A stretch of DNA of 64,000 bases from Candidatus Iainarchaeum sp. (GTDB lineage: Archaea; Iainarchaeota; Iainarchaeia; Iainarchaeales; UBA10219). Every line of letters starts with the position of its first letter. Within the stretch, counting starts at the first letter, position 1. Positions 12,508-18,458 of the stretch are shown piece after piece. The translations under genes were made by a program, and so were the position numbers. Where the stretch lies: NCBI GenBank assembly GCA_018304425.1, contig JAGVWE010000002.1, positions 372,001 through 436,000 on the forward strand, in the 5' to 3' direction. The notes beneath the pieces were generated by a model. The model made no database searches, was not told the origin of the DNA, and worked only from the letters and a program-made list of their open reading frames with translations.

Positions 12508-13206
12508 TCAAGCATGCAAGCCCTTGCACAATTCCGCCAAAGCCCTAGCAGGGGAAGCCGCCCGAACAACGCCTGAAGCAACGAAAACGCCCGAAGTACC
12601 CAGTTCAAGGGCTTTCTCGACGTCTGCCCCTGACTTGATGCCCGCCCCGGTAATGACGCATATAGCCGGATTTACGGATTTAACAGCTGAAACCGTGGAA
12701 GCGATGACTTCCGGCTTGGCCGTTGAAACCGAAACATTTCCACCAATGAGTTCAGGCGGTTCCACCGCGACAAAGTCCGGTGAAAAGGCCGCTACCTCTC
12801 GCGCCCTAGCCGTAGTCTCGGCACAAACCATGACCAGGAGGCCGGCCGCATGCGCACGGGCAATGGCTGCCTGAATAAAGTCGTTGGAACGCTTGTTTTC
12901 CGCGTGATTGAGGATGGTGCCCTTGGCGCCAGCCTGCCTGACCCCTTCAGGCAGGATGTGACCGGTGCAGGCACCAAAAGAAACGGGGTCCAGGTGCTGG
13001 GCAAACACAGGCAAGGAAACGGCGCGCGAAACCGGGAAAAGGTCTGGGGCCTGCACTACCAAGGCAATGGTGGTTTTTGTTTTCCTGGCCACCTTCTCCG
13101 CCAACCTGGCCAGGGCCAATGCCTGCTTACCAGTGGCCTCGGCATAGGCCTTGAAGTTTAGGAAAAGAACCGGTGTTCCCAGCCTTGCACGCTTCGGGGG
13201 CCCCAT
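12508..13206 (-). CDS. tpiA: Triosephosphate isomerase, archaeal type
   Basis: PVLFLNFKAYAEATG, LNHAENKR, VMVCAETT, VAVEPPELIG, ITGAGIKSGADVEKALELGTSGVFVASG. Confidence 0.92.
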   Translation of the reverse strand: MGPPKRARLGTPVLFLNFKAYAEATGKQALALARLAEKVARKTKTTIALVVQAPDLFPVSRAVSLPVFAQHLDPVSFGACTGHILPEGVRQAGAKGTILNHAENKRSNDFIQAAIARAHAAGLLVMVCAETTARAREVAAFSPDFVAVEPPELIGGNVSVSTAKPEVIASTVSAVKSVNPAICVITGAGIKSGADVEKALELGTSGVFVASGVVRAASPARALAELCKGLHA

Positions 13207-13257
13207 ACAAGCGTTACTGCACCATATGCCTTAAATACCCTCGGCGGCAACGGTTTT

Positions 13258-15147
13258 ATGGGCATGGCTCCGCCTAAAACAATTTTAGCTGGGTTAAAGG
13301 AACGAGTAAAGGCCTATCAATCGGACGCTGATTTCAGGCTAATAGAGCGAGCCGTGGACCTGGCAAGCGAAGCGCTCAAGGAAAGAGCGAGCGAAAAACT
13401 TGCCCCCTCGGTGGATGTCGCCGGGCTGCTTGCCGACCTTCGCCTCGGCGAAAAAACCCTTGCCGCGGAACTGGTGCAGCCCTGCCTACTGGAAGGCACC
13501 CTAGACCGGAAACGCATCGAAGCCGAACTTGGCAGGGAAGCCGCTGACCTCGCGTGGGAACTGGCAAAAACAAACGTTGCCCTCGCGGAAGGCAACCCGG
13601 AAAAAACGGGGCGGTTACTGCTCGCCCTAACCCATGATTTCCGGCTTGTTCTGATGGCCTTGACCGAGCGCAGGGTGCTCCTTGAACGCACGCTGCGCGC
13701 AAAAGCCGATGCCCGAGACCTGGCCTCGGAAGTCCTTGAAAACTATGCCCCCTTGGCGGAAAAGCTTGGGGTGTATTCCCTGCGATGTGCGCTCGAAGAC
13801 ATGGCATTCAAGGCGCTGCATCCAGAGCAATACCTGGAACTGGAGTCCAGGCTCCGGCAAAGCGAAAAAAGCCGGGAACGGGAATTAGAGACCGCCATAG
13901 AAACCCTGTCCGCAGAGCTGGCGCGGACAAAAATTGAGGCCAGGGTCGAAAGCCGGTTCAAGCACTTGTATGGAACGTACTCGAAGATGAAACGAAAAGG
14001 CATCCCCCTCGAACAAGTGTATGACCTCAATGCGGTGCGGGTGATAACCCACTCGCTGGAAGCCTGTTACACCGTGCTCGGCATCGTGCACGCCCTGTGG
14101 AAGCCCATCCCCGACCAGTTCGATGACTACATCGCGAAACCCAAGCAGAACTATTACCAATCACTGCACACGGCAGTTCTAAGCGGGAAGGGTATGCCCT
14201 TTGAGGTCCAGATCCGCACGGAAGAAATGCACAATTTCGCCGAATACGGGGTTGCTGCCCACTGGCGGTACAAGGGAGCCAAAGAAGCCAAACACCACGA
14301 CCAGAAGCTTGAATTGATTCGGCAAGTCATTCACTGGGCGGCGAAAGCGGATGGTAGCACTCCAACCGAAGGAATGAAAGTGCAGTTGTTCGGGAACCAG
14401 ATAAACGTTTTCACCCCAAAAGGAGACACCATTTCGCTGTGCAGGGGCGCAACCGCGTTGGACTTCGCCTACGCCATCCACTCAGACCTTGGCAACAAGG
14501 CCTACCAGGTTAAAATCAACGGGAAACTGGCTTCCCTCGAACACGAGTTGTCCGCTGGCGACACCGTTGAAATACTTACATCAGCCAAACAAACCCCCAA
14601 ACGCGCCTGGCTTGCGATGGCCAAAACCGAGAAAGCCAGGAAAAAAATCATGCAAGCCATCCACCTGCAAAAAGGGGCTGCGCCGCCCAGTCCCATCCAG
14701 GGAAAGGGAATGGCTATCAAGATAACAGGCAAGCAAAAAAACGTGAAACTGGCTGGATGCTGCAAGCCATTACCCAGCGACCGCGTCGTTGGTTACCGGA
14801 CAACGAAACGGAAACTCATCGTGCATTCCGTGACCTGCCAGGAGTTAGCCAAACAAAAAGAGTTGGGCCGGTTAGTGAATGTGGATTGGGGAAAGCGTGT
14901 CGGTGGCAAATACTCGCTTGAATTGAAGGTGTTTGCCGCTGACCGCCCTAGTCTGCTTGTCGACCTGCTGAATGTAATCTCCGGCGAAAAGGCAAACGTC
15001 AAGGCGGCCAACACGAAAACCTCTTCAAAGGGAACCGCGCTGTCAGTTTTTGTCATGGAACACACGGATATGGCGCGCCTTGAAAAAATAGTGGAAGGCC
15101 TAAAAAGGATCCGCGGCGTAAAAGAAGTCACGCTGGTCGGCTCCTAA
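13258..15147 (+). CDS. Long RelA/SpoT homologue (degenerate HD, synthetase, TGS, C-terminal ACT-like domain)
   Basis: RFKHLYGTYSKMKRKGI...YDLNAVRVI...DYIAKPKQNYYQSLHTAV...EVQIRTEEMHNFAEYGVAAHW; TGS NVFTPKGDTISLCRGATALDFAYAIHSDLG; CCKPLPSDRVVGYRT. Confidence 0.92.
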   Translation: MGMAPPKTILAGLKERVKAYQSDADFRLIERAVDLASEALKERASEKLAPSVDVAGLLADLRLGEKTLAAELVQPCLLEGTLDRKRIEAELGREAADLAWELAKTNVALAEGNPEKTGRLLLALTHDFRLVLMALTERRVLLERTLRAKADARDLASEVLENYAPLAEKLGVYSLRCALEDMAFKALHPEQYLELESRLRQSEKSRERELETAIETLSAELARTKIEARVESRFKHLYGTYSKMKRKGIPLEQVYDLNAVRVITHSLEACYTVLGIVHALWKPIPDQFDDYIAKPKQNYYQSLHTAVLSGKGMPFEVQIRTEEMHNFAEYGVAAHWRYKGAKEAKHHDQKLELIRQVIHWAAKADGSTPTEGMKVQLFGNQINVFTPKGDTISLCRGATALDFAYAIHSDLGNKAYQVKINGKLASLEHELSAGDTVEILTSAKQTPKRAWLAMAKTEKARKKIMQAIHLQKGAAPPSPIQGKGMAIKITGKQKNVKLAGCCKPLPSDRVVGYRTTKRKLIVHSVTCQELAKQKELGRLVNVDWGKRVGGKYSLELKVFAADRPSLLVDLLNVISGEKANVKAANTKTSSKGTALSVFVMEHTDMARLEKIVEGLKRIRGVKEVTLVGS

Positions 15148-15194: not shown

Positions 15195-15923
15195 ATGCAA
15201 CGAATGCCTACAGGGATTCCTGGCTTGGATGAGTTGATGGAAGGCGGGCTGCCCCTAGGCAGAATAATCGCCGTTTTGGGCAACAGCGGCTCCGGTAGAA
15301 GCATTTTGGGCCTCCAGTGCCTCCACACCGGCGCCAAGAAGTTCTCGGAGCCCGGCCTTTATGTAACGCTTGGCGCACCTGCCGCGCAGGTCCGGCAAGA
15401 GGCACTGCGTTTCGGATGGAATTTGCGAAAGCTGGAAGAGCAAAACATGTTGCAGTTCCTTGATGGAAGCAAGACCAAGCAGGGGCTACCCGGCGAAGAA
15501 GATTTTTCCCTGCAGCCCCTGGGCTTTGACTTGGACCGGCTTCTCCTTGAAATCATGCGGACCGCCAAACGAATCGGTGCAAAACGGTTAGTTTTTGACT
15601 CCCTGCCTACGCTTGGCTTCAACTACGAACGACCGCTGGAAGTGAACCAGGCACTGTTTAAACTGGTGGAAGCCTGCCGGCGCCTGGGGGTTACAACCCT
15701 CCTAATAGGCGATAATAGCCTGGAATCTGGCAAGGGACATGAACAGGCGGTTGCGGAAACCCTGGCCGATGGCATCATAGTATTGAATCGTGGTGGCCCT
15801 GGCCAAAAGCGAACCCTCCACATCCGGAAGATGCGAGCCACGCATCACGCGGATTCACTACACACCTTGGAAATAACCGAAAATGGTGTGGCCGTGGGCC
15901 CGGCATTGAGCCCCCTGGGCTGA
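15195..15923 (+). CDS. KaiC/RadA-like RecA-fold protein with variant Walker A
   Basis: MPTGIPGLDELMEGGLPLGRIIAVLGNSGSGRSILGLQCL, Walker B RLVFDSLP; Walker A Lys replaced by Arg. Confidence 0.8.
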   Translation: MQRMPTGIPGLDELMEGGLPLGRIIAVLGNSGSGRSILGLQCLHTGAKKFSEPGLYVTLGAPAAQVRQEALRFGWNLRKLEEQNMLQFLDGSKTKQGLPGEEDFSLQPLGFDLDRLLLEIMRTAKRIGAKRLVFDSLPTLGFNYERPLEVNQALFKLVEACRRLGVTTLLIGDNSLESGKGHEQAVAETLADGIIVLNRGGPGQKRTLHIRKMRATHHADSLHTLEITENGVAVGPALSPLG

Positions 15924-16991: not shown

Positions 16992-18458
16992 TCACTTGAG
17001 TGGTTTCATTTGGGGAAAGAAAATAATTTCCCGAATTGTTTTCGCGCCGGTCAACAACATGCAGAGGCGATCTATTCCAATTCCCAGGCCTGCGGCCGGC
17101 GGCATTCCGTAACGCATGGCGGCCACGAAATCCATGTCGATGGGGTGGTTCTCCCCTTTGGCAACGCCCTGGTCTGCCTGTTCCAAGAAAATCTTTTCCT
17201 GGTGCACGGGGTCGTTCAACTCTGAGTACGCGTTGGCGACTTCCCACCCGTTAATGAAGGGCTCAAACCGCTCGATGAGGTCCGGGTTGCCCCTTTTTTC
17301 CTTGCATAGCGGCGTGGTTTCCTTTGGGTGATCAATGATGAAAACCGGCTGGACCAGCTTCTCCTCCACCGTCTTGGAAAAGAGTTCGGCAATGGCGAGC
17401 CCCCGCTTGAATGGCATGACTTCCGCCTGGTGCTCTGCCAGCAGCCGCTTGAGGTCGGCATCGGAAAGTCTTTCGACATCCAAGCCCGCAAACCGTTTAA
17501 GGGCATCATATAGGGCGATACGGGGCCATGGAGCCTTCAGGTCGATTTCCTTCCCCTCAAAGGAAATCTTGGTGGTACCATTCACTTCCAGCGCGGCAGA
17601 CTCGAAGAGCTTTTCGGTCAATTCCATTAAATCATTGTAATCCCAGTAGGCGGCATAGCATTCCATCATCGTGAACTCAGGGTTGTGAGTCTTGTCCACA
17701 TCCTCGTTTCGGAAGTTTTTGCAGATCGTATAAACCTTGTCATAGCCGCCCATCAGCAGGCGCTTGAGGTAAAGCTCTGGCGAGATGGAAAGGAAGAAAT
17801 CCGATTTCCATGCGTGGGATTTCGTGATGAACGGCCGTGCATTGGCTCCTCCGTAAACCGATTGAAGGGTCGGTATTTCCACTTCCATGAAACCATAGGA
17901 CTCCAGGAACCGGCGGACGAAAGAAACGATTTTAGAGCGCTTGACGAATAGCTCGCGCACTTCAGGGTTCATGATCAAGTCCAGGTGGCGCTTGCGGTGC
18001 CGCTCCTCGATGTCCTGGAGGCCGGACCATTTCTCCGGCAGCGGCTCGATGGACTTAGCTAACACCTCAACATTTTCAAGGAAAACTGACAACTCGCCCT
18101 TGGCCGTGCGATGCACCCTGCCAGTCGCGCCCACAAAGTCGCCAACATCCACGAGGCCCAACAAGTCAATAACTTGTGCTGGCGTCTTATCCGCGGTGGC
18201 CATTAGTTGGACTCTTGCGCTGTGATCCCGAATATCCAGGAAGAACAACTTTCCGAAGCCCCTCTTGGCCATGACCCTGCCGCAAATTTTTACGCGCTGG
18301 CCCAGCATTTCGCCAGGCTGGACCCCCTCGAACTTCTGGTGGAATTCCTGGTTGGTGTGGGTGCGCTCAAATTTATAGGGGTATGGGTTGATGGCTTTGG
18401 TGCGCAAGGCCCCCAGGTGGTCCAGCTTGCTTTTTACCAAATCGCTTTCACGACCCAT
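16992..18458 (-). CDS. lysS: Lysyl-tRNA synthetase, class II
   Basis: 488 aa; HRKRHLDLIMNPEVRELF, FRNEDVDKTHNPEFTMMECYAAYWDYNDLM, GLGIGIDRLCMLLTGAKTIREIIFFPQMKP. Confidence 0.95.
   Translation of the reverse strand: MGRESDLVKSKLDHLGALRTKAINPYPYKFERTHTNQEFHQKFEGVQPGEMLGQRVKICGRVMAKRGFGKLFFLDIRDHSARVQLMATADKTPAQVIDLLGLVDVGDFVGATGRVHRTAKGELSVFLENVEVLAKSIEPLPEKWSGLQDIEERHRKRHLDLIMNPEVRELFVKRSKIVSFVRRFLESYGFMEVEIPTLQSVYGGANARPFITKSHAWKSDFFLSISPELYLKRLLMGGYDKVYTICKNFRNEDVDKTHNPEFTMMECYAAYWDYNDLMELTEKLFESAALEVNGTTKISFEGKEIDLKAPWPRIALYDALKRFAGLDVERLSDADLKRLLAEHQAEVMPFKRGLAIAELFSKTVEEKLVQPVFIIDHPKETTPLCKEKRGNPDLIERFEPFINGWEVANAYSELNDPVHQEKIFLEQADQGVAKGENHPIDMDFVAAMRYGMPPAAGLGIGIDRLCMLLTGAKTIREIIFFPQMKPLK

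Follow-up and report, generated by a model that had tools for sequence, protein, structure and literature searches.

The RSH1 locus and its conservation

The window, by which we mean the whole 64,000-nt stretch of DNA analysed (G000:C1:372001-436000), lies on a 502 kb contig of a 1.48 Mb archaeal genome in 7 contigs that is 92.6% complete and 1.3% contaminated. At 13258..15147 (+) it holds an intact open reading frame, beginning with ATG, for a 629-aa long RelA/SpoT homologue (RSH) that we call RSH1 and predict to be synthetase-only; a second in-frame ATG, at 13264, suits a leaderless archaeal start just as well. The order of its domains (HD, synthetase, TGS, ACT) is that of the long RSH superfamily, the closest solved structures are long RelA/Rel chains, and the protein scores 480.6 bits against the TIGR00691 spoT_relA model, slightly below the cut-off of 499.2. 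Pfam models locate a synthetase domain at aa 232-342 (RelA_SpoT, 3.5e-40; 13951..14283, +), a TGS domain at aa 382-441 (1.9e-20; 14401..14580, +) and an ACT (RRM) domain at aa 550-625 (ACT_4, 1.1e-12; 14905..15132, +). The HD_4 match at aa 34-172 (13357..13773, +), which marks the pseudo-hydrolase domain, is weak (3e-12). A shortened helical region precedes a zinc-finger region with conserved CC/R/H/C (~aa 496-532; 14743..14853, +). A preliminary description of the locus had proposed TGS and C-terminal regulatory domains, and TGS, zinc finger and ACT were all matched. It had also placed a TATA-like box about 25 nt before the ATG, which held: the box, CTTAAATA at 13230..13237 (+), begins 28 nt before the ATG at 13258, and boxes of this kind lie no more than 45 nt upstream of 6 of the 57 window genes, against ~0.3 expected (0.0056 per gene). 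Structure prediction for RSH1 from a 3-row alignment gave a mean pLDDT of 51, too poor to use.

Two conserved neighbours adjoin RSH1: a divergent gene for triosephosphate isomerase (TPI; 12508..13206, -) and, downstream on the same strand, a gene for a KaiC-type ATPase (15195..15923, +). A polyprenyl synthase gene also belongs to the neighbourhood in the window. The KaiC-type ATPase is not known to have any functional link to RSH1. Further along, the lysyl-tRNA synthetase encoded at 16992-18458 (-) is a class II enzyme of bacterial type (lysS_bact, 559 bits), and its gene lies near two tRNA-Lys genes. The 16S gene of the host genome scores 1327 bits over the full archaeal SSU model; since the same model also matches bacteria, we regard this as supportive and not as proof.

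RSH matches, sorted into classes by motif and length, were found in 72 of 93 genomes, a share similar to the 69% published for Diapherotrites (PMC8407392); the likeness merely hints at our inferred placement of the order in Diapherotrites/Iainarchaeota. RSH1 is present in 66 of the 81 genomes of the order, partial copies counted. TPI is upstream and divergent in 31 of the 70 loci whose upstream flank spans 500 nt or more. Downstream, 38 of the 75 loci with a flank of 300 nt or more have the KaiC-type ATPase on the same strand; loci from other archaeal lineages, eight in all, are counted in both denominators. The gene order TPI-RSH1-KaiC is common to many families, and is missing from f10 and some others. 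This order-wide orthology and conserved synteny show that RSH1 has been inherited vertically at least since most of the families last shared an ancestor. They also effectively exclude bacterial contamination, which the preliminary description had named as an outcome that would refute it.

Some other RSH-related sequences turned up in the survey. One RSH1 copy (L093, G076:C102) is broken by in-frame stops, and may be a pseudogene or an assembly error. A family of 361-372 aa with a RelA_SpoT domain, which may be a mobile small synthetase, occurs sporadically both in the order and in other archaea (L106, L100, L070 and similar loci). Two genomes without RSH1 encode stand-alone HD_4 proteins of ~200 aa with HDxxED, resembling small alarmone hydrolases (L203 in G080, L204 in G092).

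Active sites of RSH1 and of a second long RSH

We scored synthetase and hydrolase positions in columns placed by motif, with residue labels in Streptococcus Rel numbering. In alignment with SpoT and RelA of E. coli, the window RSH1 matches at all 14 scored synthetase positions, the last scored His lying inside the synthetase stretch given above, and at none of the 8 hydrolase positions. LLHDVIEDT of E. coli SpoT aligns with LVQPCLLEG, and LADRTHNMRT with LTERRVLLER. Hence the preliminary claims of a complete synthetase core and of a degenerate HD region, reading LVQPCLLEG for LLHD-x-x-EDT, both held; all the synthetase motifs it quoted are present and its HD quotations are accurate. Across 60 full-length RSH1 sequences, the synthetase site scores 11-14 of 14 and the hydrolase site 0-5 of 8. 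R241, K243, K251, D264, R268, Y308, H312, E323 and Q325 are kept in all 60, K297 and R327 in 57, and H344 in 51. Individual hydrolase residues persist in 4-38 of the 60, HDxxED is found in none of them, and no shared replacement has taken its place. The pseudo-hydrolase domain itself is retained in every full-length copy. Misalignment of the HD motif was ruled out by aligning many orthologues, and the second outcome named in advance as a refutation, an alignment restoring the HD/ED residues, was met neither in the window RSH1 nor in its 59 full-length orthologues. We conclude that the synthetase site of RSH1 is complete and that its hydrolase site is dead though the domain is kept. The window RSH1 can probably make (p)ppGpp and not destroy it, which supports the earlier proposal of a synthetase-only RelA-like enzyme; this activity is inferred, with no activity, product or expression data behind it.

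Thirty-six genomes of the order encode a second long RSH, RSH2, which lies outside the window. Among the 81 genomes, 36 have both proteins, 30 have RSH1 only, none has RSH2 only and 15 have neither (Fisher p 6e-5, uncorrected for shared ancestry). All 35 full-length RSH2 proteins have 8 of 8 hydrolase positions and a synthetase site reduced to 4-8 of 14; this combination of an intact hydrolase and a broken synthetase is the hydrolase-only, SpoT[Hs]-like pattern. R268, E323 and Q325 are lost in 35/35, the catalytic E323 being replaced by Lys in 33, by Arg in one and by Asp in one. D264 (35/35), K251 (34/35) and Y308 (32/35) are still present, which suggests a regulatory pseudo-synthetase that has been kept, in preference to decay; the uniform change of Glu to Lys likewise looks selected, although both inferences rest on the residue pattern. 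No full-length long RSH with both sites intact was found in the order; by their residues, the long RSHs L191, L192, L194 and L196, from archaeal lineages outside this phylum, are bifunctional. In genomes with both proteins, synthesis and hydrolysis would thus be divided between RSH1 and RSH2, activities that we infer from sequence alone.

Of 35 RSH2 loci, 27 have argS (arginyl-tRNA synthetase, identified by PF00750 and DALR) as a neighbour on the same strand, strictly upstream in 26 of them; the spacing, frequently +4 to -6 nt, is operon-like. In eight loci from families f6 and f9, argS and RSH2 are followed by a convergent leuS. In four RSH1-only genomes, namely the window genome (G000), G042 (one contig, 99% complete), G064 (97%) and G032, argS directly faces leuS. 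No RSH2 remnant was found at the argS-leuS junction of any of the four; searched at the protein level, the four genomes yielded only RSH1, plus a short synthetase in the window genome. RSH2 is therefore cleanly absent from its usual place in these genomes; loss is the simplest reading of the empty junctions, no formal reconstruction having been made. The short synthetase (G000:C4:148478-148795; L002 1279-1854; L130) is 191 aa long from its first ATG and has 14 of 14 synthetase residues and no hydrolase domain. HD_4 and HD_3 searches detected no other RSH-type hydrolase domain in the window genome, where one partial match to a generic HD model (27 bits) is unassigned. The window genome is thus an unusual case, with two predicted synthetases and no known hydrolase, although a non-RSH hydrolase is not excluded. 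The preliminary description had argued that another hydrolase would be needed, and for this genome, with no second RSH-type hydrolase domain and an empty junction, that held. It had not foreseen the order-wide degeneration of the hydrolase site, the predicted hydrolase-only partner in more than half of the RSH1 relatives, or the second, small synthetase.

Phylogeny and ribosome-sensing parts

The RSH phylogeny for which the preliminary description had called places RSH1 among archaeal sequences. In a careful tree (46 sequences, 438 columns), 14 bacterial sequences from five phyla stand apart from all archaeal ones with support of 95/97. The RSH2 clade is firmly supported (100/100) and groups with archaeal sequences, not with proteobacterial SpoT; the RSH1 clade is weak in the same tree (47/89). 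A quick tree had split RSH1 into two unrelated lineages, an arrangement that we rejected: with 84 sequences, keeping RSH1 in one group improved the tree by 33 log units (AU p 0.906). Since RelA of the E. coli type falls among the bacterial sequences, RSH1 lost its hydrolase residues convergently. The tree does not decide between duplication of a single archaeal gene and separate acquisitions as the origin of RSH1 and RSH2. The bacterial sample is small, and because the protein-pattern scan for bacterial references returned only two Oxalobacter genes, it comes chiefly from plasmid-collection records; an unsampled donor phylum is therefore still possible.

The two paralogues also differ in the parts with which E. 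coli RelA senses the ribosome and tRNA. In that enzyme, H432E in the TGS domain blocks activation by uncharged tRNA, and changes of C612/C613 or R629 in the zinc finger impair the action of starved ribosomes (PMC7058999). The equivalent of H432, which lies within the RSH1 TGS domain, is present in 60/60 RSH1 and 3/35 RSH2 proteins. The zinc-finger residues C612, C613, H634 and C638 occur in all 60 RSH1 proteins and R629 in 59, whereas the three cysteines occur in none of the 35 RSH2 proteins and the histidine aligns in one. Median lengths of the segment from TGS to ACT are 31 aa for RSH2, 99 aa for RSH1 and 193 aa for the bacterial proteins. We therefore predict a ribosome-coupled synthetase in RSH1 and a ribosome-uncoupled hydrolase in RSH2, although binding to the archaeal ribosome and activation by it are inferred from residues only. 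The helical region of RSH1 is about half the bacterial length and its alpha6-alpha7 loop has 12 aa, against 22-31 in the beta/gamma RelA proteins sampled, so control may differ from that of bacterial RelA.

A putative split stringent system, its rivals and its relatives

We propose that RSH1 is a native archaeal, synthetase-only, RelA-like long RSH, probably triggered by the ribosome, and one half of a split stringent system. We consider this reading likely (probability about 0.8), its activity and ribosome coupling being inferred. During amino-acid starvation, RSH1 would join uncharged tRNA at the ribosomal A site, where it would make (p)ppGpp. Its pseudo-hydrolase domain may act as a regulatory part, by analogy with E. 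coli RelA, where the retained domain is regulatory (PMC8012599). RSH2, encoded behind argS in most carrier genomes, would hydrolyse the product off the ribosome. The inferred signalling role of the pair is the stringent response. In the window genome, which has no RSH2, turnover must depend on some other enzyme or on dilution. A bolder reading, towards which we lean without much confidence, is that the order has a stringent response of its own, in which two long RSHs are each fully monofunctional, RSH1, encoded next to a KaiC-type ATPase, as the ribosome-coupled synthetase and RSH2, expressed with argS, as the hydrolase uncoupled from the ribosome; that the split is independent of proteobacterial RelA/SpoT; and that some members, including the window genome, lack the hydrolase.

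The alternative that survives best, though we think it unlikely, is that RSH1 is an active synthetase whose control does not involve the ribosome, with ACT-domain ligands or the adjacent KaiC-type ATPase, for instance, as regulators. In its favour are the adjacency of that ATPase in 38 loci and the shortened helical region; against it, the TGS His and the zinc-finger residues are invariant in RSH1 and lost in its paralogue RSH2. It is much less plausible that RSH1 makes another 3'-pyrophosphorylated nucleotide such as (p)ppApp, or serves as a toxin-like synthetase, and not in starvation signalling. The defence model PDC-S33, for a small synthetase, does match the RSH1 synthetase domain weakly (46.6 bits), and certain RSH enzymes produce pppApp (PMC6491832), but RSH1 shows the complete architecture of a long RSH, is inherited vertically with its synteny fixed, and is accompanied in many relatives by a partner hydrolase. 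Less probable still is a hydrolase that works through a rearranged site: the domain is kept in all full-length copies and a few of them retain up to 5 of 8 positions, but HDxxED is absent from 60/60 without a common replacement. Bacterial contamination or recent transfer, which the chiefly bacterial distribution of RSH enzymes and a predicted bacterial origin of DPANN RSH genes (PMC8407392) might suggest, is all but ruled out by orthology and synteny in many families and by the separation of the bacterial sequences at 95/97; an ancestor could still have acquired the gene by ancient transfer.

If our preferred reading of a ribosome-triggered synthetase with a separate hydrolase is right, what the order provides is a clade-wide system, passed on vertically, whose enzymes can be tested. 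There is also a natural contrast, in which the same fold retains its tRNA-reading parts as a synthetase and loses them as a hydrolase, and its genomes with a synthetase but without a hydrolase test the rule that the one requires the other.

RelA/SpoT genes in DPANN archaea, including 69% of Diapherotrites, are already in print (PMC8407392), a point absent from the preliminary description. They are very probably the same genes as ours, described at the level of annotation; active sites, the paralogue split, co-occurrence and synteny are not treated in the relevant passages of that paper, and in the openly licensed literature searched we found no report of an archaeal RSH split, of the argS linkage or of the KaiC neighbour. 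Bifunctional Rel[HS] enzymes, including the archaeal L191, L192, L194 and L196, share the domain order and synthetase site of RSH1, but their hydrolase is intact where that of RSH1 is dead. E. coli RelA (RelA[hS], of beta/gamma-proteobacteria) shares with RSH1 a complete synthetase, a dead but kept hydrolase domain, TGS, zinc finger and ACT; its acidic/Asp-Asp motif is EFDD, that of RSH1 QFDD. Unlike RelA[hS], RSH1 falls outside the RelA clade, has a helical region of about half the length and lacks an extended alpha6-alpha7 (H) loop. As a pair, RSH1 and RSH2 resemble RelA and SpoT[Hs] of the Moraxellaceae (Acinetobacter), a synthetase-only enzyme with a hydrolase-only partner that has kept a pseudo-synthetase (PMC9974481; PMC12742793). 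RSH2 differs from Acinetobacter SpoT[Hs] in also lacking the zinc finger, in keeping D264, K251 and Y308 and in its position behind argS, and the split has arisen in a separate lineage. The order may thus present a second, apparently independent instance of full division between synthetase and hydrolase.
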